Shown: in pieces, positions 35,481 to 45,111 of the stretch
Layout of the letters: every line of letters begins with the position of its first letter
Numbering within the stretch: the stretch's first letter is position 1
Origin: Lactiplantibacillus garii
Lineage (GTDB): Bacteria; Bacillota; Bacilli; Lactobacillales; Lactobacillaceae
DNA: 58,242 nucleotides
NCBI RefSeq assembly: GCF_003885105.1
Contig: NZ_QWZQ01000018.1
Location: forward strand, 1 to 58,242
Direction: 5' to 3'
The notes under the pieces: generated by a model
The model's input: the letters and a program-made list of their open reading frames with translations, nothing else
Databases searched by the model: none
What the model was told of the DNA's origin: nothing
Translations under genes and position numbers: made by a program

Positions 35481-35556
35481 CAAACTATGTCAAAATATAT
35501 TAACACAGTTCATTAGCTCGCCATCACCCCATTATTAGCAACAAGGATTGATTACC

Positions 35557-36396
35557 ATGACTTTAACGGAATTAGAAAATTTACTAATCGGATTAACGAT
35601 TCTGATTGCCATTACGTTCGTTTTAACCATCATTATTTACTTTTGGTATTCACGGAAGAGTTCCAACAATTACTTAGAAAATCACGAAATCAAGTTACAC
35701 TATTTTATCCAAAAACAGGTGGACTACCGGGGCAACACCAGCGGTTACGAATGTCTCTTACGGCAACAAAACGCCGACGGCAGCTGGTCGTTACCCCCTA
35801 AGTTGGATTCGCTCCCGTTACAGCGGGTCATTTTTTTACTCGAAGACACCTTCCACTCGTTACCGGAAGAACCAATCACACTGTCGATCAACCTAGAGTA
35901 CGAACAGATCATCAGTCCCGAGTTTCACTACTTTGTGCGCTGGGCGATTTCTAAAATCGAACCGATGCACTTAGCCATTGAATACACACCCCAGTATCAG
36001 CCTAAGCGGATCAACAAACGGCTGTTCCGCCGCCGCATCGAAGAAGCACGGCAGTACGGCATGACGTTTGGTATCGATAACGTGGGCGCCAGCCTGGATA
36101 ATCTAAAAAGCATTGAATGGCTCTTAAAAGACATCGACGTCCTTAAATGTTCCATGCGCAGTTTTCGGAAGGAAGATCCCTCCGTTTGGCTGGATCTAAA
36201 CTTACAATTTTGGAACCGCCTCTCACGCAAGCACCACATCGACCTCGTGCTCATGGGCATTGAAAACGAACAGGACGAGCAGTTGGCAGAACAGTTGCAG
36301 ATTGCGATTCGCCAAGGCTACTTGTTCGGCCACCCCGTTAACCCGGACCAAACCCAACCGAAAGGAAAACCGACCAATGAAAAAGCCAACGCCTAA
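35557..36396 (+). CDS. Membrane-anchored degenerate EAL-domain protein
   Basis: 279 residues: one N-terminal membrane helix (about 9-31), then an EAL domain (about 45-265). The EAL signature reads ECLLR (65-69); the metal-site Asn (LSINLEY) and Glu (LAIEYTP) are kept, but the DDFG motif is IDNVGAS, so the second Asp has become Asn, and the usual EGVET reads MGIENEQ. QGYLFGHP is kept. Loss of the DDFG Asp usually removes c-di-GMP hydrolysis while binding may remain, so I infer a c-di-GMP receptor. The ATG at 35557 has AAGGA nine bases upstream; a TTG at 35548 overlaps that site. First gene of an operon with PgaD- and PgaC-like proteins. Confidence 0.85.
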   Translation: MTLTELENLLIGLTILIAITFVLTIIIYFWYSRKSSNNYLENHEIKLHYFIQKQVDYRGNTSGYECLLRQQNADGSWSLPPKLDSLPLQRVIFLLEDTFHSLPEEPITLSINLEYEQIISPEFHYFVRWAISKIEPMHLAIEYTPQYQPKRINKRLFRRRIEEARQYGMTFGIDNVGASLDNLKSIEWLLKDIDVLKCSMRSFRKEDPSVWLDLNLQFWNRLSRKHHIDLVLMGIENEQDEQLAEQLQIAIRQGYLFGHPVNPDQTQPKGKPTNEKANA

Positions 36397-36904
36397 AACG
36401 GAAACGGCGCAACAACGCCAACAACTTTATACCGACGCCTACTTTGAACGCGGCCACTGGTTACTTAAAATTTGGCAAACGCTGGTGGGCCTGCTGGGAT
36501 GGGTGGCCGTCATCGTGCCGATTCTCATCACGGTGCTCTCCTATTGGTCCAGCTACGACGCCCGGATTCCCCGGTTTTGGTCGTATCAGGAAGGAATTTT
36601 TGAAATTAAATTTATCGGTATCCTACTGTTATTTGCCTTTGCGCTAGCTTCACTGTTTGCCGTCACGATGACCATTATTCAAAATCGCAAACGCAACCGG
36701 GTCGTTGAACAGTGGCCGACCTTTAACCCCATCGATCAAAAGCGGCGGCAAAAACTCCTCGCGCACTTTATGGACGCGCGCTTTGGCACCCCCGCGTTCC
36801 GCGAGAACACCCGCTATTACCGCGTTAAGCCGGAACAGAACTTAGACACGGATGAGATCCAGCACCTTTACGATGACCATGACCTGAACGAATTAGACCA
36901 ATGA
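36377..36904 (+). CDS. PgaD/IcaD-like small membrane subunit
   Basis: 175 residues with two membrane helices (about 35-60 and 80-105: LVGLLGWVAVIVPILITVL, IGILLLFAFALASLFAVTM) and a basic, charged C-terminal half. It overlaps the end of the EAL gene by 20 bases and is followed nine bases later by the GT2 synthase. Size, two-helix layout and position match the accessory subunits that stimulate poly-GlcNAc synthases (PgaD, IcaD), but sequence similarity alone would not be convincing. The start at 36377 has AAAGGA upstream. Confidence 0.75.
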   Translation: MKKPTPKTETAQQRQQLYTDAYFERGHWLLKIWQTLVGLLGWVAVIVPILITVLSYWSSYDARIPRFWSYQEGIFEIKFIGILLLFAFALASLFAVTMTIIQNRKRNRVVEQWPTFNPIDQKRRQKLLAHFMDARFGTPAFRENTRYYRVKPEQNLDTDEIQHLYDDHDLNELDQ

Positions 36905-36913
36905 GGACGACCC

Positions 36914-38245
36914 ATGCATAACATTTTTATTGACCACCTGCTGGAAGCAACGGCGGGGCAAACCGTTTTAAACATTATTTTGTTAGTTTTATGTCTTTAC
37001 CCGATCACCGGCTCCTTCTTCTGGTTTGCGGGCTCACTCTCCTACCGCTTCCTTAAAACAAATAAACGGGACGATAATTGGGAACCCATCGCACCTAAGG
37101 ACCAACCCCTGATTACCATCATGATTCCCGCCCATAACGAGGAAGTCATGATTGAGGAAACCATTACCTACTTGTTTGAAGAATTAAATTATCAAAACTT
37201 TGAAGTCCTAGTCATGAACGACGGCTCCACGGACCACACCGCGGCCATCATTGAGCGTTTACAAACCAAGTACCCGCGGTTACGCACCGTTGAGATTGAA
37301 AAGAACAAGGGCAAGGCGCACGCGTTTAACATCGGCATGTACTTCGCCAAGGGGGACTACATTCTCAGTAACGACGCCGATACCATTCCGGAAAAGGACG
37401 CGCTGATGAAGTACATGAACTTTTTCATTCACGACCGCGATATGAATACGTCGGCGGTGACCGCCAACATGGACGTCCAAAACCGGACCAAGTTGTTGGG
37501 CAAATCACAAACGGTGGAATTTTCTAGCATCGTCGGGGTCATCAAACGCAGCCAAACGTCCGTTAACGACTCGATGTACGCTTACAGTGGCGCCAACACC
37601 CTGTATAAAAAACAGTTTTTGATCGACGTGGGCGGCTTTCGACAGAACCGGGCCACCGAGGACATTAGCATCGCCTGGGATCACCAAATGGTTGGCGCGG
37701 TGCCACGGTTTGCCCCCAACATCGTTTTCCACATGAACGTTCCCACCACCATCCGCGACCTCTACCGGCAGCGCAAACGCTGGGCGCAGGGCGGGACCGA
37801 AGTGTGGTTGACCAACATCAAGAAGTTCCTGTTTCACCCCATCAAACGACGTTACCAACTCTCAATGTTCGTTGATTCCACGTTATCGATCGTCTGGTCC
37901 TTTTTCTTTGTGATCACGTCGATCATCTTTATCGCATTCATGCTGGCCTTTCTCTTAGCCGGTAACTATGAGCGGGTCTACCACGGCTTAGTCATTTCGT
38001 TTATCTTCGTGACGTTCGAATTACTGGCCGGGTTCATGCAGCTATTAGCGGCACTATTGCTGGACCACCACGGTGCTAAACTAAAGTACTGGTTCTTCGC
38101 TCCGCTGTACATGTTGTTCTACTGGATGATCAACCCCATCACCGTTGTGACAACGTTTATCCCGGCACTCAAAACCATCCTGGGCTTTGGTTCCGGAACG
38201 TGGGTCAGTCCTAAGCGCCAAAGCTTACAAAAAAATAAAAAATAG
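36914..38245 (+). CDS. Processive family 2 glycosyltransferase (PgaC/IcaA-like exopolysaccharide synthase)
   Basis: 443 residues: N-terminal membrane helix (about 16-42), cytosolic GT-A domain (about 65-290) with ITIMIPAHNEE, MNDGSTD, SNDADT (the DxD-type metal site), TEDISIAW (catalytic Asp) and QRKRWAQGG (the QxxRW acceptor motif), then four membrane helices forming the export channel. This is the layout of poly-N-acetylglucosamine, hyaluronan and cellulose synthases; closest in look to PgaC/IcaA. No PilZ domain is present, so any c-di-GMP control would run through the degenerate EAL protein. No deacetylase (PgaB/IcaB) gene follows. GAGGA precedes the ATG. Confidence 0.9.
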   Translation: MHNIFIDHLLEATAGQTVLNIILLVLCLYPITGSFFWFAGSLSYRFLKTNKRDDNWEPIAPKDQPLITIMIPAHNEEVMIEETITYLFEELNYQNFEVLVMNDGSTDHTAAIIERLQTKYPRLRTVEIEKNKGKAHAFNIGMYFAKGDYILSNDADTIPEKDALMKYMNFFIHDRDMNTSAVTANMDVQNRTKLLGKSQTVEFSSIVGVIKRSQTSVNDSMYAYSGANTLYKKQFLIDVGGFRQNRATEDISIAWDHQMVGAVPRFAPNIVFHMNVPTTIRDLYRQRKRWAQGGTEVWLTNIKKFLFHPIKRRYQLSMFVDSTLSIVWSFFFVITSIIFIAFMLAFLLAGNYERVYHGLVISFIFVTFELLAGFMQLLAALLLDHHGAKLKYWFFAPLYMLFYWMINPITVVTTFIPALKTILGFGSGTWVSPKRQSLQKNKK

Positions 38246-38505: not shown

Positions 38506-39273
38506 TTATTCACCAAATAGTCCCATTAAATCGGCCGCTTCTAACCGGTCCTTGGCCGCGCCACGGACGTCCAACTTGATCTGGCCGTCTTGGACCATCA
38601 CTAACCGGTTGCCGTACGTTAACGCGTCACTGATTTTGTGAGTGATCATCATGGTCGTTAAGTGTTGGCGCGTCACGATCCGCTGGGTCAGTGCCATCAC
38701 TTGCCGACTCGTCTGGGGGTCCAACGCGGCGGTGTGTTCGTCCAGCAGCAGTAACTGCGGGTGACTCAGCGTCGCCATCAAGAGTGATAATGCCTGGCGC
38801 TGACCACCGGATAAATACTTCACCTGGGTGTTTAAGCGGTGTTCTAAGCCCATATTTAAACTGGCCAACAGTTCTTGATAACGCGCCGTTTGCCCAGCGC
38901 GCCGGTATCGGCGCAAACTCAGACTCCCCGTATGTTTTTCTGCTAAGGTCAGGTTCTGCGCCACACTGAGCTCACCAGCCGTCCCCATCTTGGGGTCCTG
39001 GAAAACCCGGGCGATCCAGCGGGAACGGTACGCTACCGACCGGTTGGTGACCCGGTGCCCGGCAACCGTTAATTCACCCGCGTCCGGCGATAAGGTCCCG
39101 GCAATCGTGTTAAGTAACGTGGATTTACCAGCCCCGTTATTGCCAATCACAGAAACAAAGTCCCCGGGTTCAATCGTTAAGTTCACGTTTTTGAGCACGT
39201 GACGTTCGTTGCTGGTCCCCGGAAAGAAGACCTTCTGTAGTTGTTGTACGTTTAGAACGGCGGTAGTTTCCAT
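38506..39273 (-). CDS. ATP-binding subunit of a TrpXYZ-type amino acid ABC importer
   Basis: 255 residues with Walker A GNNGAGKST, signature LSGGQRQALSLLMATL (the wording typical of the ABC_sub_bind-associated class), Walker B LLLLDEHTAALD and H-loop MITHK. I start at the ATG 39271-39273, with TTGGAG ten bases upstream; a TTG at 39288 is within that site. It overlaps the permease gene by about 104 bases, which is unusual. Third gene of the operon behind the Phe-rich attenuator. Confidence 0.9.
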   Translation of the reverse strand: METTAVLNVQQLQKVFFPGTSNERHVLKNVNLTIEPGDFVSVIGNNGAGKSTLLNTIAGTLSPDAGELTVAGHRVTNRSVAYRSRWIARVFQDPKMGTAGELSVAQNLTLAEKHTGSLSLRRYRRAGQTARYQELLASLNMGLEHRLNTQVKYLSGGQRQALSLLMATLSHPQLLLLDEHTAALDPQTSRQVMALTQRIVTRQHLTTMMITHKISDALTYGNRLVMVQDGQIKLDVRGAAKDRLEAADLMGLFGE

Positions 39274-40171
39274 TTTGATCGACTCCAATCTGTTTGAGGT
39301 ACCGGCTTAGTTGACGCTTGGTCCGGTATTTATTTTGTAATAGCGGTAGGCAAATCACGACAACCAAGATCGCGGCGGACAGGATCTTTAAGTCGTTGAC
39401 CGGAAAACCTAAGCCCATTGCCAGGGTCAGCAGGTACCGGTAGATCACGGCTCCGACGACCATCCCGCTTAACCGGACCCACATCGTCCGTCCGTGCAGG
39501 AAGATCTCACCCACTAGCACGGAGGCCAGGCCAATCACGATGGTCCCAATTCCCATCCCAATGTCGGCGTAGCCGTTACTCTGGGCAATCAGGGCACCGG
39601 ATAACGCAATCAGGCCGTTGGATAACATGTAGCCAATGATCACCATCCGGTCGGTATAAATGCCGTTAGCGGCACTCATCGCGGCGTTGTTCCCGGTCGC
39701 CATTAGGGACAGCCCCAACCGCGTTTGGAACAACCAGACTAACGCTAACACCACGGCCGCCGTGATTCCCGCCCCGATAACGATGGTTTGAACGTCCAAC
39801 GACCAACCGGCGGGTAAATAATTAGTTAAGACTTTTTGGTCTAATAACGGAATATTGGCTTTGCCCATAACGTGCATGTTCACGGAGTACAAGCCGGTCA
39901 TGGTTAAAATTCCGGCAAGTAGCGACGGCATTTTTAACTTGGTATCGAGTATCCCGGTCACCCAGCCCGCGGCGCAGCCCCCTAAAAATCCGAGTAAGCT
40001 CGCTACGATCGCGGACTGGCCGTTGAGCATCGCGCTGATCGTCAAGGCGGCGCCCAGGGGAAAACTACCTTCCGTCGTCAAATCGGGAATGTTCAAAATT
40101 CTAAAGGTCAAAAACACCCCGATAACGAGTGGGGCCCAGAGCAGTCCCTGTCCAATACTGGTAATTAACAT
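39170..40171 (-). CDS. Permease subunit of the TrpXYZ-type ABC importer
   Basis: A 333-residue permease with eight to nine membrane helices; ILNIPDLTTEGSFPLGAA and the ATGNNAAMSAANGI loop are typical of the BPD_transp_2-like permeases of this class. The C-terminal 40 residues after QIGVDQNGNY read through the start of the ATPase gene in another frame and are polar and low in character (RSKRTTTTEG...), so the original stop codon may have been lost or shifted. The real homologous part ends near residue 293. Confidence 0.88.
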   Translation of the reverse strand: MLITSIGQGLLWAPLVIGVFLTFRILNIPDLTTEGSFPLGAALTISAMLNGQSAIVASLLGFLGGCAAGWVTGILDTKLKMPSLLAGILTMTGLYSVNMHVMGKANIPLLDQKVLTNYLPAGWSLDVQTIVIGAGITAAVVLALVWLFQTRLGLSLMATGNNAAMSAANGIYTDRMVIIGYMLSNGLIALSGALIAQSNGYADIGMGIGTIVIGLASVLVGEIFLHGRTMWVRLSGMVVGAVIYRYLLTLAMGLGFPVNDLKILSAAILVVVICLPLLQNKYRTKRQLSRYLKQIGVDQNGNYRRSKRTTTTEGLLSGDQQRTSRAQKRELND

Positions 40172-40187: not shown

Positions 40188-41156
40188 CTACGATTGTTTG
40201 ATTTGGTTGGCTTTCAGGCCAATCGCGCTGGCATTCGTTTTGTTAACATACAAGTGCAGCTTATCCGCCGTTTGCACCTTCATGGTTTGGGGCCGCTGCT
40301 TTTTGATTAATACGTTGTACGCCATCTTCCCGGTCTGTTCCCCGAGTTCGTAATAGTTTAAACCGTAAGTGGCGGTCCCACCGTCTTCGGCCATTTCGAT
40401 TGAACCAGTCACAACGGGTAATTTAGCCGCCTTAGCTTTTTGCCCAATTGTCTTCATCGCACTGGCCATCAAGTTATCCGTTGGCAGGTACAGGCCGGAA
40501 ACTTTTCCTTCTAAACCGGCCAACACGCTGGCGATATCGTTGGTGCTGGTGGCGCTCACCACTTTTAACTTTAAGTTATGTTGTTGGGCGTACTTTTTAG
40601 CAATTTTAACTTGTAATACGGAATTTTCTTCGGACGAATTATACATGATTCCGAGTGGTTTATTGGTTTTGGTCATGCTTTTAAGCAGCTTAAGTTGTTT
40701 GGCTACTGGCACCAGGTCACTCGTTCCGCTCACGTTGGTCGCGGGCTTGGTATCACTTTTAACTAAGCCGGCCGCTTTCAAATCGGTGACCGCCGTAACG
40801 AGGGTTGGGACGGTCTTAGTTTTCTTAGCGAGGGCCTGGGCGGCCGGGGTGGCGATGCCGACTAATAAATCATTTTTTTGCTGAACAAGTTGTTGGCTCA
40901 TGGTGTTCAGATTGGCCTGATCACCCTGCGCGTTTAAGTAGTGGTACTTCACCGTGGTTTTATTACCGTGGGCTTTCAGTTCCTTGGCTAACCCCGCCTT
41001 GAACCCTTTACGGGCCTGGTCCAGCGAGCCGTGTTGCACTACCTGTAAAATACCGACCGAGACGGTTTTGGAATCGTTGGCGCTTCCCGAATTTCCGCAA
41101 GCGGTTAATAATAATCCGAGTCCTAAAACTAAGCTTCCTAAAATGGCTTTTTTCAT
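40188..41156 (-). CDS. Substrate-binding lipoprotein of the TrpXYZ-type ABC importer
   Basis: 322 residues: lipobox LTACG (Cys about 20), then an ABC_sub_bind domain (VSVGILQVVQHGSLDQARKGF, LLVGIATPAAQAL, TSDLVPVAKQLKLLK, YLPTDNLMASAM, YGLNYYELGEQTGKMA). Homologues import tryptophan or tyrosine, often behind Trp or Tyr T-boxes. Here no T-box is present; a leader peptide with five Phe in its last eight residues suggests phenylalanine or another aromatic as the sensed amino acid. GAGGGG precedes the ATG. First structural gene of the operon. Confidence 0.9.
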   Translation of the reverse strand: MKKAILGSLVLGLGLLLTACGNSGSANDSKTVSVGILQVVQHGSLDQARKGFKAGLAKELKAHGNKTTVKYHYLNAQGDQANLNTMSQQLVQQKNDLLVGIATPAAQALAKKTKTVPTLVTAVTDLKAAGLVKSDTKPATNVSGTSDLVPVAKQLKLLKSMTKTNKPLGIMYNSSEENSVLQVKIAKKYAQQHNLKLKVVSATSTNDIASVLAGLEGKVSGLYLPTDNLMASAMKTIGQKAKAAKLPVVTGSIEMAEDGGTATYGLNYYELGEQTGKMAYNVLIKKQRPQTMKVQTADKLHLYVNKTNASAIGLKANQIKQS

Positions 41157-41229
41157 AAGTAATTACCCCTCAAAGTTGTTTAATGGTTTGCATCCACTCC
41201 CCGACCAACGTCTTGATCAGAATTCGTGG

Positions 41230-41325
41230 AAAATAAAAAATACCAGTTAGATTCAGGATAGAATCTAACTGGTATTTTATCGGGCCCGATAGTTTTCCAG
41301 ATAGATTGTACCCGTATCTACCTGG
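41230..41325 (-). promoter_or_regulatory. Transcription attenuator (antiterminator/terminator) of the aromatic ABC operon
   Basis: On the minus strand four segments follow each other: CCAGGTAGAT (41316-41325), ATCTATCTGG (41297-41306), CCAGTTAGATTC (41261-41272), GAATCTAACTGG (41243-41254), then a T-rich tract (41230-41242). Segments 1:2, 2:3 (one mismatch) and 3:4 can each pair, the last being an intrinsic terminator with AAAATA/TATTTT flanks. This is the textbook plan of an attenuator. It lies between the leader peptide and the first structural gene. Confidence 0.75.
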
Positions 41326-41346
41326 CATTTAAGTCATGTGAAATAA

Positions 41347-41433
41347 CTTTAGCTCCCGATAGATACAAACGCGTTGTGCGTGCGTTTGTATCCACCGTGC
41401 GAATACAAACGCTATCTAAAGAAAAAGCTAAAG
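41347..41433 (-). promoter_or_regulatory. Mutually exclusive hairpins overlapping the Phe codons of the leader peptide
   Basis: GCGTTTGTATTC (41401-41412), GGATACAAACGC (41382-41393) and GCGTTTGTATC (41362-41372) offer two competing hairpins. In addition CTTTAGCT inside the leader ORF (41426-41433) is complementary to AGCTAAAG (41347-41354). A ribosome stalled at the Phe codons would cover the first segments and shift the balance. Confidence 0.7.
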
Positions 41434-41474
41434 GCAAATTGGTTATTTAAATGAAGTTGTGTAACTGATGACAT
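41412..41474 (-). CDS. Phe-rich leader peptide (20 codons)
   Basis: ATG at 41472-41474, AAAGGA nine bases upstream, TAG stop at 41412-41414. The peptide ends NQFAFSFFFR: five of the last eight residues are Phe (TTT/TTC), placed immediately before and inside competing hairpins. This is how classical Phe attenuators (for example pheST/pheA leaders of enterics) are built. It probably has no function as a protein. The strong link between codon content and downstream aromatic amino-acid transporter supports the call. Confidence 0.75.
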   Translation of the reverse strand: MSSVTQLHLNNQFAFSFFFR

Positions 41475-41510
41475 AGGTTGTCGTCCTTTCATTTTGCAAT
41501 TTGTAGTTAT

Positions 41511-41539
41511 AGTTAAACATTAAAAAGTTCTCATGTCAA
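41511..41539 (-). promoter_or_regulatory. Promoter of the leader peptide/aromatic ABC operon
   Basis: Perfect -35 TTGACA (41534-41539) with TTAACT 17 bases on, followed by TATAAC (41506-41511); the exact -10 is uncertain. It starts 31 bases after the WxL operon stop, so the ABC operon is a separate unit with a leader of about 350 bases. Confidence 0.6.
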
Positions 41540-41569
41540 CTGTTGTTCTCACATTGCTTTCTTACTTTG

Positions 41570-43195
41570 TCACGGAGCATCCGTAATGACCCACTGGATT
41601 GCCATTTTATGTTTGCCAACTTGAACATCGGGATGTAGCTCCATAAAAATTCCCGTATCTCGCTGAGCATCACGGTGCCGGTACCAATCTTCACCAAACG
41701 TGGTGGTAGTTTTCGTACCCGTCGCGGCCGGTGGCAGATCTAACTTAGTCGTTGCTTTTTCGGTTAAGTACGTAACGTTACCATCGGACTTACGGTAGAA
41801 GAGTCGAATACCACGTTCCACACTCGCACCGACATTGACGGACCAGTTCTGATCACTAGCAGCATGTCGGACAACCATGCGTGGCCAGGCTTGCGGCACA
41901 ATTTTTTGGACGTTGCGCGGAACCGGATTAGTGCCAAAGTCAAACACCGTGGCACCCTGTGGCTGTTCCCAACTTGGCGGACTCATAAACGTAATGGTCG
42001 TACTAGGCGTCATATAGCCATCATTATGAATCGCATATAGTGTGAGATTAACAGGTCTTTGATAACGTGAAAAATAATCTAAACGTTGCGCCAAATCATT
42101 TGGGCTCATATCAGTGACCCACATAAATTCTTCTTGCTTCACCGGCTGATCCACACTCTCAATTGTTATATGTGCCCATTCCTCTATTTTTCCAAGTGCA
42201 ATATAAAAATTTTGAAGTTCTCCCTCAGATGCGTTTTCGTTGTGTTTCACCTGCAAGGCCTCAACCATGGCCTTAATTTCATTATTACTGGGATCTAACA
42301 CGGGATGTGCCACGTGTAACTTAAACGGATCTTCAACAGATACATCAGTGTACCCAACCACCCCGTTCGAATCTCTTTCTTTAACCGTTACCGTGTCTTG
42401 ACCAACCAAAGCACCCGGTTCAAAAGTTAATTTAAACTTTTTACTTCCCAATTTAGTATCAGGTGTCGAACTGACTGAACTTGTTACCGTACTATTTTTC
42501 TGACTTCGTTCACCAGTAATTTGATGTGCATCAGCGTACAGCCTATCGACCGTCGGATGCCAGACGTGTTGGACTGCGCCGGGATCAAATTCCGCGAGCG
42601 CCTGCACATGAATTGGTTTCTTATTCCAATTGTTATAAACTGCTAAAGCAATATATAGCGGCTTTTTTAATTGTTCCTGAGTTAGTTTAACATCATTAAT
42701 AAAGCTCACACGTCCTGAAAACGAGGCCGTATATCGGTAAGAAAGCGTCATAAATGGCCGGCTTTGTTTAAGTTGGAATCGGTCTCTTGTTGTAGCTAAT
42801 ATGTCTCCCTGATTATTAGTAAGTACTACCGTTCCCCATTCAGGTGTAATAAAAACAGGAATCTTATTTTGCCATCCCCGAGTCATAATTAATTGGTTTT
42901 TTAAAATCACTTTAATTGTTGTCGTATTTACAGATAAATTTGGTGCTCCCAAGTTTGCACCATCAGCTGTGATATCAACAACATAGGGAATGCTCTTTGT
43001 ACTGGTCAGAGAAATATTGCCAGTAGCCCGCAATTGCTTATTAACACGGTTTTCTCCCTTAAAAATCGACACGTCACCATTAGTTTCTGCGTGAGCAGTG
43101 GCCATTGACACTATCAATAAGCATATGAAGCTGAATAAACCGATTAGTCTTTTCCACCAATTAACATTCCAAACGTACCTCTGAGACTCACTCAT
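41570..43195 (-). CDS. Large WxL-like surface protein (CscC type), operon 2
   Basis: 541 residues with a signal peptide (about 15-37, LIGLFSFICLLIVSMATAHA) and a long beta-rich extracellular part. The C-terminus has the WxL-like arrangement: FDFGTNPVP, a WSVNVGASV strand and a final IQWVITDAP in place of the usual WTLSDVP. I start at the ATG 43193-43195 (MSESQRY), which overlaps the stop of the upstream gene (ATGAGTGA) and has GTAGG before it. It attaches non-covalently to the wall, probably in a complex with the operon's other two proteins. The promoter is at 45112-45154. Confidence 0.82.
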   Translation of the reverse strand: MSESQRYVWNVNWWKRLIGLFSFICLLIVSMATAHAETNGDVSIFKGENRVNKQLRATGNISLTSTKSIPYVVDITADGANLGAPNLSVNTTTIKVILKNQLIMTRGWQNKIPVFITPEWGTVVLTNNQGDILATTRDRFQLKQSRPFMTLSYRYTASFSGRVSFINDVKLTQEQLKKPLYIALAVYNNWNKKPIHVQALAEFDPGAVQHVWHPTVDRLYADAHQITGERSQKNSTVTSSVSSTPDTKLGSKKFKLTFEPGALVGQDTVTVKERDSNGVVGYTDVSVEDPFKLHVAHPVLDPSNNEIKAMVEALQVKHNENASEGELQNFYIALGKIEEWAHITIESVDQPVKQEEFMWVTDMSPNDLAQRLDYFSRYQRPVNLTLYAIHNDGYMTPSTTITFMSPPSWEQPQGATVFDFGTNPVPRNVQKIVPQAWPRMVVRHAASDQNWSVNVGASVERGIRLFYRKSDGNVTYLTEKATTKLDLPPAATGTKTTTTFGEDWYRHRDAQRDTGIFMELHPDVQVGKHKMAIQWVITDAP

Positions 43196-44255
43196 TTTTT
43201 TCACCTACTTGCATCGTCCGGCGTTCTTTTCGACGGTGCCACCATAACCACACGCCCCAAATAATTACTACTAGTAGTAACGTTGCTAGCGAACTCAGCA
43301 ACATGAACAACCACGTCTTATCGGGCTTAATATCGACCGACTTTTGGTTAAATTTGTGCGCATCGTCATCCGTGATCGTAAAGTCGCGCTCAAAATGCCA
43401 GTGATGATCATGGTTCGTCGCATCCAATTTTAGGTGGTAACGCCCTGCTCGCAAGGGTTGGCTTCTCAATAAGAGCGAGTCTTGATAACCTGAATTTGGC
43501 GCCATATACACCCTTTTCTGGCTTGCACTTTTTACTATGGTACCCGTATCACGATTACTAATAACCGTTTTTAACTTTAAAGCCGGAATCAACACTGCTG
43601 TTACATTCCGTAAATTGACGATAATCCCCTGGTGGTAGTGAAACAATCCGGCGTGAACCGTTCCCAACTTCATTTGGGGAGCGGGGTTCTCTCCTAGTTG
43701 GCACATAATTGCAATGTTGTAGGAGTACTCGTTTTTGATATTGGTTGCCCCCTTGACCTCACCGGTGACCTTATCGTTAATTCGTTTGAAGTACCATCCG
43801 CCCAGCAACGTCCCGTGGAAATCACTACCGGGCATGGTAAGGGTAGCACTCACCACTCGCTCTCCATGCGCGGGGACCGTTACTTTGTGTTCTCCATCAA
43901 TGTGGGTCAGCTGATCCAACCGGTACTTCAGTGATGGATCATATTTTTTAGCTGGTGTGATATATTCCAATTCACCACTAGGGTTGGTATAAGCCGTATG
44001 CACGGCATGTTCAACCGTTATTTCATGATCCGTCGTGTTATAAATCGTTGTTTGGAGTGTTTCTCTTTGTCCAGGTGCCATCTTCAAATCAAAAAAAGAC
44101 ACGTGGTGATTAATTTGATTACTAGCTTGCTTGGCAGCCACGCTAAAACCGATTTCACTTTGAACTGACGGTCCCGCAGCTTGCACCGTATCCGCCCACC
44201 AAAGACTAGTTCCGACCAACGCTACTATAGTCAACCAGAGTTTACGCATTACCAT
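43188..44255 (-). CDS. WxL-interacting protein with DUF916/DUF3324 domains and C-terminal anchor, operon 2
   Basis: 355 residues: signal peptide (1-26), DUF916 peptidoglycan-binding domain (about 30-155; GFSVAAKQASNQI, SFFDLKMAPGQRETLQTTIYN), DUF3324 host-binding domain (about 160-310; LGGWYFKRINDKVTGEVKGA), one membrane helix (about 315-340) and a basic tail. These proteins hold WxL partners at the cell surface. GGAG is eight bases before the ATG. It lies between the small and large WxL genes as usual. Paralogue of the gene at 48257 (the segment YDPSLKY and the LGGWYFKR block are shared). Confidence 0.9.
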   Translation of the reverse strand: MVMRKLWLTIVALVGTSLWWADTVQAAGPSVQSEIGFSVAAKQASNQINHHVSFFDLKMAPGQRETLQTTIYNTTDHEITVEHAVHTAYTNPSGELEYITPAKKYDPSLKYRLDQLTHIDGEHKVTVPAHGERVVSATLTMPGSDFHGTLLGGWYFKRINDKVTGEVKGATNIKNEYSYNIAIMCQLGENPAPQMKLGTVHAGLFHYHQGIIVNLRNVTAVLIPALKLKTVISNRDTGTIVKSASQKRVYMAPNSGYQDSLLLRSQPLRAGRYHLKLDATNHDHHWHFERDFTITDDDAHKFNQKSVDIKPDKTWLFMLLSSLATLLLVVIIWGVWLWWHRRKERRTMQVGEKNE

Positions 44256-44327
44256 TCCTTCAACTCCTAAGTTTGTATGTACAAAAAGGTGGGCTAACCA
44301 CCGTTAGTCGCACCAATCACTTATCCG

Positions 44328-45089
44328 CTACTTCCCATCAGTATTTGAAGGGCCAGTACTCAATGTCCAGTTAAGCGTTGTTTTATAGTCACCGGTTTTA
44401 ACATTACTTACAGGCACCGATAACTTAATTTCGCTTGGATTCATTTGAAAAGTTGTCATCCCCGCACCAGTATCCGATATGGATGTCTTTAAAATGTTGG
44501 CGCCCCTGTCACCCAATTGGATGGTTCGCTCAGGTTGAATGATTCCACCCTTGGTCTCATCGTTACGTTTGATGGTCCCATCGGGAAGTTCAATTTTTGC
44601 ACCTTCCATGACCCTTTTATTAGGATTATTATCATCCAACGTTAACGGATCACCGGTTACGGTTAGGTTCCAACCATCGCCGGTTCCTCGTTCATCCCCC
44701 ACTTCAACAACAAATTGACTATGCCACAATATTGAACTTTTAGGATCTAAATTGATGGCTACTTCACTCACCATACTATTGTCCGAACTATTGCTCTTAC
44801 TAGTTGGACTCGTTGTTAAATCATCAAATTTGATTGTATGGGTAACATATACTAATGACAAATTTTTTCCTGGTTTTACCCCATTATCTGGAGCATCGTT
44901 TACAGTTTTATTGGGATGGTCCGGATCAACAGGAGACATCATATCAGAATCTGGTGTCACACTAACCGTCACATCAGTTTTCCCAACCTCACCGTCAGTT
45001 GTCGTAACGGTTTCTGCGCGGACAACTTTTGGCAAATTGACTAACAATAAAGCGCTCATTAATATTGACCCACATATTTGTCTTTTCAT
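44328..45089 (-). CDS. WxL-domain cell-surface protein, operon 2
   Basis: 253 residues: signal peptide (about 1-25), an Asp/Pro/Asn linker (PVDPDHPNKT), and a WxL domain with the two conserved tryptophan motifs GWNLTV and LNWTLSTGP at the C-terminus. WxL domains bind peptidoglycan non-covalently. GGAGG stands six bases from the second of two adjacent ATGs, which I prefer. First gene of a three-gene operon that lacks the small LPXTG protein found in operon 1. Confidence 0.9.
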   Translation of the reverse strand: MKRQICGSILMSALLLVNLPKVVRAETVTTTDGEVGKTDVTVSVTPDSDMMSPVDPDHPNKTVNDAPDNGVKPGKNLSLVYVTHTIKFDDLTTSPTSKSNSSDNSMVSEVAINLDPKSSILWHSQFVVEVGDERGTGDGWNLTVTGDPLTLDDNNPNKRVMEGAKIELPDGTIKRNDETKGGIIQPERTIQLGDRGANILKTSISDTGAGMTTFQMNPSEIKLSVPVSNVKTGDYKTTLNWTLSTGPSNTDGK

Positions 45090-45111
45090 CATTAACCTCC
45101 ATTAATAGTTA

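Follow-up and report, generated by a model that had tools for sequence, protein, structure and literature searches.

A predicted phenylalanine leader-peptide attenuator in front of a TrpXYZ-type importer of Lactiplantibacillus garii, and its relatives in Lactobacillales

The window, by which we mean the whole analysed stretch of 58,242 nucleotides from Lactiplantibacillus garii (contig NZ_QWZQ01000018.1), carries on its minus strand a leader of about 380 nt that lies between a surface-protein-like gene cluster (41570-45092) and the three genes of an ABC importer (41156-38506). The cluster consists of three genes, by eye of the WxL/DUF916 surface-protein type, which are transcribed toward the leader, and at 35548-38245 there is, also by eye, a c-di-GMP/exopolysaccharide locus with an EAL-like protein and a nearby GT2 glycosyltransferase. 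The first importer gene encodes a PF04392 member that scores 313 bits with the NCBIfam model for TrpX (NF041285), under its curated cut-off of 390. Solved relatives of this protein are 6hni, 3lft and 3lkv, which we take to be binders of Tyr, Trp and Phe. The features of the locus are collected in Table 1.

Table 1 Features of the leader and the importer genes in the window
Feature	Position	Strand	Basis
Promoter: TTGACA (41539-41534), 17-nt spacer, TGT-TTAACT extended -10 (41519-41511)	41511..41539	-	conservation
Shine-Dalgarno sequence of leader peptide, AAAGGA	41484..41489	-	sequence; same rule finds one in relatives
Leader peptide ORF (predicted), 20 codons, MSSVTQLHLNNQFAFSFFFR, stop TAG 41414-41412	41412..41474	-	sequence and relatives
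S1, CTTTAGCT, within Phe codons; pairs with S5	41426..41433	-	covariation
Segment a, GCGTTTGTATTCG, starts at last base of stop codon; pairs with b	41400..41412	-	covariation
Segment b, TGGATACAAACGC; pairs with a or c	41382..41394	-	alignment and folding
Segment c, GCGTTTGTATCTATC; pairs with b or (3' half) d	41358..41372	-	duplex and folding
S5, AGCTAAAG; closes S1:S5 helix	41347..41354	-	alignment, covariation
Segment d, CCAGGTAGATAC; pairs with c (relay) or e	41314..41325	-	duplex and folding
Segment e, AATCTATCTGG; pairs with d or f (antiterminator)	41297..41307	-	duplex energies
Small self-complementary element between e and f, TATCGGGCCCGATA	41278..41291	-	alignment, by eye
Segment f, AAAATACCAGTTAGATTC; pairs with e or g	41261..41278	-	terminator, alignment, duplex energies
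Segment g and T run; f:g is the intrinsic terminator (41278-41237)	41230..41254	-	terminator, alignment
Gene 1, TrpX-type substrate-binding lipoprotein (PF04392)	40188..41156	-	family and structure matches
Gene 2, permease (PF02653)	39170..40171	-	family match
Gene 3, ABC ATPase (PF00005)	38506..39288	-	family match

A first-pass annotation of this DNA had proposed a Phe leader-peptide attenuator before the importer, and the ORF with its own Shine-Dalgarno sequence, the five Phe in its last eight codons and the terminator are all found where it had put them. A short ORF with its own ribosome site, translation of which is predicted, is thereby located between promoter and terminator. Folding of the window leader gave -114.3 kcal/mol as compared to -75.3 ± 4.7 kcal/mol in 100 shuffled sequences (z = -8.3; 0/100 as low). 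The promoter named in the annotation was missed by a consensus promoter scan of the window, but it is conserved across 36 leaders, that is, the window and 35 related loci: the extended -10 was kept in all of them, as TGn followed by TTTACT or TTAACT or the same with a final A, and TTGACA is present in 26/36, with a spacer of 17 nt in 25 and of 18 nt in one; in the other ten, the 100-nt upstream cut begins inside or after the place of the -35.

The 35 loci came from a search with the substrate-binding protein; their records are assigned to Lactiplantibacillus, Levilactobacillus, Companilactobacillus and unclassified Lactobacillus. An ORF ending in QFAFSFFFR and a stop codon occurs in all 36 leaders; its Q codon lies 220-737 nt upstream of the start of the tblastn match in the 35 relatives, and the distance from start codon to Q varies by whole codons (11 in 24 leaders, 12 in seven, 13 in four and 14 in one). 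Relatives that keep the hairpins and have lost the ORF or its Phe codons, which the first-pass annotation had considered fatal to its proposal, do not occur among the 36. With ORF and Phe codons kept in every one, an attenuator governed by a Phe leader peptide stands as the best reading. The alignment of orthologous leaders that had been recommended thus shows fully conserved Phe codons, and two-sided changes of base pairs appear in the alignment of more divergent members described below.

Relatives of the leader extend far beyond these loci. A covariance model of the 5' module made from 25 leaders (R1; family search at E ≤ 0.1) matched 126/397 genomes of the family, in 23/40 genera, and a model made from 44 divergent members (R2; order search at E ≤ 0.01) matched 246/395 genomes of the order Lactobacillales, in 62/80 genera. 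In the class, R2 matched 35/398 genomes (12/146 genera), five of the genomes being outside the order. Judged by sequence homology, the window leader is one member of a large family that is found mostly in Lactobacillales. A short ORF with many F, Y or W residues is present in all of 41 family-level matches (40 stretches), mostly weaker ones. In the genome of the window the element also occurs outside the importer operon: there are three in all, and the other two are MSLPLNHIKTSTSFYFWYFR before a gene for a class I/II-type aminotransferase (L109) and MTQRQLPTNAYYFGLVYFR before an MFS gene (L068).

The leaders that were read form a non-random set, chosen to span scores and families; it comprises the 41 family matches, 72 sources and 36 later leaders that came mainly from the genomes with most matches. 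After duplicates were dropped (L228, L229 and the first match of L259), 170 distinct leaders remained (134 + 36), a count that overstates the number of independent events because the sequences are related. An antisense match on the plus strand of L143 was left out of the ORF and duplex work. Where frames compete, the ORF script chooses the one richest in aromatic residues; in four leaders the reading ran three codons beyond the usual stop and was cut back, and the leader of L149, which has a GTG start and ends in LLLNIIISIIR, was read by hand.

The first-pass annotation had described the switch as competing hairpins with a four-segment antiterminator and terminator. Alternative hairpins and a terminator are indeed present, but there are seven mutually exclusive segments and an outer helix instead of four segments. 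The four-segment reading was dropped because the complementarity of c and d joins the leader hairpins to the terminator hairpins.

Pairing of the 5' module was assessed in two alignments. In that of the 44 divergent members 93.7% of cells are paired, as compared to 80.3% after shuffling and 34-40% after sliding, and in the order-level alignment of 73 rows, which includes the antisense match of L143, the corresponding values are 94.6%, 87.4% and 32-46%; since both alignments were fitted to the model, these controls outweigh the raw percentages. Changes on both sides of a pair were found at 22/29 pairs in the 44-member alignment (14.5 ± 1.7 after shuffling; 0/500) and at 18/29 in the order-level alignment (10.5 ± 1.3). 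Helix S1:S5 contributes 7/8 and 8/8 pairs with such changes, and helix a:b 11/13 and 6/13, in the 44-member and the 73-row alignment, respectively. An alignment of 25 close relatives has two-sided changes at 4/55 predicted pairs, all four in the terminator. In leaders with Ile codons, the S1 strand and its partner are by eye seen to change together, e.g. CAGCA with TGCTG in L151.

Terminator and d:e hairpin were found by script in 131/134 leaders, some of the d:e picks being doubtful; the 122 leaders with a d:e hairpin of at least eight pairs were used in folding tests and 117 distinct ones in a duplex test. The e:f duplex has a mean energy of -11.7 kcal/mol; for shuffled partners the mean is -4.5 and for swapped ones -7.3. 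In 89/117 leaders it is stronger than with any of the 20 shuffles, and in 54/117 the true partner ranks within the best tenth. Terminator and antiterminator are thus seen to share a strand, f. For c:d the mean is -9.6 kcal/mol, with -6.7 for shuffled and -8.0 for swapped partners; all 20 shuffles are beaten in 31/117 and the true partner ranks within the best tenth in 26/117. By these calculated energies, c:d is a weaker link of the relay than e:f. It is carried by unlike sequences, e.g. CGTGTCTA with TAGACACG in L068, and the pairs c:e and d:f, which lie outside the model, show no excess over the controls in the 117 leaders.

We consider it highly probable that the window leader is a ribosome-mediated transcription attenuator for phenylalanine. 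When Phe is plentiful, the ribosome would get to the stop codon and cover segment a, upon which b:c, d:e and f:g could pair and transcription would end at f:g. When Phe-tRNA is scarce, the ribosome would stall at the first Phe codons (F13, F15), covering S1 and leaving a free to pair with b; segment c would then be available to capture d once this is made, and with c:d formed e would capture f, by which the terminator is avoided and the importer genes are transcribed. If there is no translation, d:e would form and transcription would stop, perhaps aided by S1:S5 holding c.

The proposed dependence on ribosome position was modelled by folding growing transcripts in which a 33-nt ribosome footprint was blocked. 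Just after d is made, c:d pairing is 0.50 for a ribosome seven codons short of the stop codon, 0.09 for one at the stop and 0.24 without a ribosome; on stalling as compared to stop, it goes up in 91 and down in none of the 122 leaders. At the end of f, e:f is higher with the stalled ribosome in 43 leaders and lower in four. For the window, d:e when e is complete amounts to 0.98 without a ribosome, with the ribosome at the start codon and with the ribosome at the stop, and it is 0.02, 0.43 and 0.92 when the A-site codon is F13, F15 and F17, respectively; in the model, F17-F19 are too near the stop to open the switch. Among leaders of the QFAFSFFFR class (26), mean d:e is 0.44 at seven codons before the stop and 0.89 at the stop; in the 96 leaders outside this class it barely moves (0.78 stalled, 0.84 at stop).

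With all of f transcribed, and with a 5' end 15-40 nt ahead of the start codon, the window leader favours e:f at equilibrium whatever the state of the ribosome; with a 5' end 45-50 nt before the ATG the outcome depends on the ribosome, and with 60 nt it is mixed. A switch at equilibrium of the whole leader was rejected, as the clean result for the window hung on an assumed 5' end 45 nt upstream; across 122 whole leaders, equilibrium folding went up in 49, down in nine and was unchanged in 64. The switch, if real, would therefore have to be kinetic, settled as d, e and f are made. Within the limits of such modelling, folding backs a ribosome-position switch for the window leader, and does so weakly for most others.

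Outside the RNA itself, there is an agreement between leader codons and the following gene. Of the 170 leaders, 155 have a cluster of Phe/Tyr/Trp codons and 15 one of Ile/Leu codons, e.g. in peptides such as AIIISIIIR and NLLLISVIR. Branched-chain-type genes follow 15/15 of the Ile/Leu leaders and 0/154 of the aromatic leaders with a gene in their stretch (aromatic leader L188 has none). The one-sided Fisher value for codon class against gene class is 9.5e-22, which is not a count of events because all 15 Ile/Leu leaders are related and come from one family (f5, eight genera). The aromatic codons TTT, TTC, TAT and TAC interchange at codons -8 to -2, and TGG is present at -4 in three leaders.

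Gene families were assigned by scanning one to two members of each cluster. The genes after the 154 aromatic leaders encode a TrpX-type protein (100), shikimate dehydrogenase (14), MFS or chorismate mutase proteins (10), class I/II aminotransferases (9), prephenate dehydratase (4), DAHP synthase (4), family-3 binding proteins (3), transketolase (2) and CitMHS-type transporters (2), and there are single cases of aroA, aroB, aroC, a D-2-hydroxyacid dehydrogenase, an amino-acid permease and a gene without family match (L095). The script for first genes takes the longest overlapping ORF, and L141 and L190 in the DAHP synthase group thus get a gene more than 1 kb downstream. Behind the Ile/Leu leaders are seven LivJ-like proteins (Peripla_BP_6), three threonine ammonia-lyases (TIGR01127, 383 and 399 bits; cut-off 378.75), three branched-chain aminotransferases (TIGR01123, 283 bits; cut-off 250) and two acetolactate synthases (TIGR00118, 802 and 616 bits; cut-off 538). 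Among NCBIfam names, that of the branched-chain binding protein PRK15404 fits the L151 protein best, with 183 bits; since this falls under the cut-off of 477, a branched-chain substrate for the LivJ-like proteins of this type is likely and not settled. As to the importer in the window, leaders outside the QFAFSFFFR class contain Tyr, and sometimes Trp, besides Phe, and its predicted substrate may therefore be aromatic amino acids generally.

Several of the downstream genes deserve mention by themselves. An MFS transporter gene stands under a Tyr/Phe leader in L068, in L088 (617-2158) and in L254 (436-2031); in L088 and L254 the transporter is fused to a C-terminal chorismate mutase (PF07690 and PF01817), and in L088, L091, L103 and L107 a chorismate-synthase-like gene follows, by eye. 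CitMHS-type transporters (PF03600 in L250) are found behind the leaders VYFSYFR and MYFSYFR of L250 and L255, which predicts an aromatic substrate for them. Family-3 solute-binding proteins occur behind Phe/Tyr leaders in L177, L239 and L258; in L177 and L239 two stretches are matched. Despite its Phe/Tyr leader, the L177 protein has binders of cystine or of basic amino acids as its best named relatives. In L083 two binding-protein genes stand in tandem, and a leader precedes each of them (RFSFSFFR and RFYFSYFR).

Other explanations can be weighed against these data. In Streptococcus agalactiae, two 5' elements before paralogous ABC operons (gbs2033 and gbs1262) each yield a short terminated RNA and a long transcript from one start, and as described there they were proposed to be new riboswitches for aromatic amino acids or precursors; the elements are reported to be kept in Lactobacillales, with one before aroFBC-tyrA of Enterococcus faecium (PMC4448216). 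For the present family, direct binding of such a ligand by the RNA, with an ORF that is accidental, appears very unlikely. An ORF with ATG, Shine-Dalgarno sequence and a stop at the expected place is present in 130/134 leaders and in 2.1% of dinucleotide shuffles (20 each), and when, in addition, four or more of the last ten residues must be regulatory, the numbers are 128/134 and 0.6%. In the codons H-L-N-N-Q of the 36 orthologous leaders, minority letters number 34 at the third position, 11 at the second and two at the first, a bias expected of coding sequence. The codons of QFAFSFFFR, with four third-position changes across the 36 leaders, are near-invariant in nucleotides, which would suit a riboswitch; the RNA constraint must therefore be as strong as the coding constraint at those codons, which fits a stretch with a double role in coding and pairing. 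A riboswitch aptamer should follow neither the reading frame nor the amino-acid codons, and the leader sequences follow both: the same scaffold carries Ile/Leu codons before all 15 of the branched-chain-type genes, and such tracking of the pathway by codon identity would not be accounted for by a riboswitch.

The last residues of the peptide are constant, FR in 106/134 leaders and IR in 5/134, as could be expected if a conserved ...FR-stop peptide were to sense a small molecule inside the ribosome. TnaC is a nascent-peptide arrest switch of this kind. We hold arrest by the peptide to be highly improbable here: helix 3 pairs the AGA-TA nucleotides at the end of the ORF with c (in 98.4% of its cells), because of which the constancy of ...FR-stop is already explained, and the residues before R shift from Phe/Tyr to Ile/Leu with the pathway.

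Members of the family have also been filed as a small RNA gene. Rfam family RF02863 (Enterococcus sRNA 2410) goes back to a 195-nt RNA of E. faecium Aus0004, for which two transcripts were reported from RNA-seq and Northern analysis, with no role named in the description (PMC5593968), and it is homologous to the window leader, which it matches over model positions 1-196 with 52.5 bits (E 7e-8), under the gathering cut-off of 61. The cut-off is passed in 11/28 distinct loci scanned, i.e. in 4/14 and 7/15 loci of two sets that share L130 and include the window's own leader as L065; scores reach 212.5 bits in L132 and 177.3 bits in L118. The first model position falls within the leader codons in L132, so that the start of the ORF is left out. 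A role as a trans-acting small RNA is nevertheless extremely doubtful, since the RNA is sense to the following amino-acid gene with, in most cases, a terminator between them, the leader codons match that gene, and a terminated leader would give such a Northern picture.

The window leader has no Rfam match at cut-off. A weak match to RF04312 (trpB ncRNA motif; 26.6 bits, E 0.12) at 41231-41324 covers the terminator half and may point to a Trp-side relative, for example the gbs1262 element, and near the leaders of L118, L123, L132 and L180 there are matches to Lacto-rpoB RNA (RF01709). A T-box, which the first-pass annotation had also failed to see, was rejected on the Rfam scan, with no T-box match at cut-off in the window and none among the four matches at E ≤ 1 in 41150-41560.

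Returning to attenuation by a leader peptide, the data on the whole family make it likely that one homologous RNA scaffold serves across Lactobacillales as an exchangeable cassette, in which the seven-segment relay is combined with the leader codon run as sensor, and in which exchange between Phe/Tyr and Ile/Leu codons, accompanied by corresponding changes of the pairing strand, gave sensors for two pathways. If so, the cassette would be a main control of aromatic amino-acid genes in these bacteria where T-boxes were expected, and it would account for the gbs2033 riboswitch candidate as well as for the unassigned sRNA_2410; attenuator would then be the proper reading of an Rfam small RNA and, very probably, of a riboswitch candidate. 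For many importers a substrate (Phe/Tyr or Ile/Leu) could also be predicted from the leader, and the natural series of codon exchanges offers material on the evolution of sensors. Leader-peptide attenuation has been regarded as rare in Firmicutes; here, one homologous family has matches in 246/395 Lactobacillales genomes.

In the trp, pheA and his leaders of Escherichia coli, a peptide rich in the regulating amino acid is translated, and the position of the ribosome picks terminator or antiterminator. Those leaders have four segments, whereas the window leader has seven. One survey takes leader-peptide motifs to have arisen in gamma-proteobacteria (PMC3766115), and another states that, before its own His leaders, none were known outside Proteobacteria and Actinobacteria, ermC apart (PMC2965389). 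The latter leaders, found in Bacilli before hisS paralogues, are, by their description, also a case of leader-peptide attenuation in Firmicutes, but they concern histidine and other genes (PMC2965389). By description too, Rli60 of the Listeria ilv-leu operon is comparable, being a ribosome-mediated Firmicute attenuator with branched-chain codons that was tested with a reporter (PMC5864092). The Trp T-box of Streptococcus suis trpXYZ attenuates the same type of importer, but senses tRNA directly (PMC9382623). Closer in content is uORFC-13-1 of Acholeplasma aroF, in which Phe codon(s) in a short ORF precede a terminator and a shikimate gene, and for which ribosome-sensed control was proposed; it differs in being restricted to Acholeplasma and environmental sequences and to one gene, and its description includes neither a relay nor a codon swap (PMC8632094). 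Going by its description instead of an alignment, the gbs2033 element and the window leader are very probably one and the same: the former occurs in Lactobacillales before ABC-transporter operons and the E. faecium aro operon, with a premature terminator and a terminated RNA seen by RNA-seq, and the difference is that the account of it speaks of a riboswitch and makes no mention there of a leader peptide (PMC4448216). Among the openly accessible papers that our literature search listed, none could be recognised as an account of a Phe, Tyr or Ile leader peptide of this family in Lactobacillales. Leader-peptide attenuation as such is a known kind of control; what is new, as compared to the systems above, is the relay, the breadth of the family and the exchange of codon specificity.
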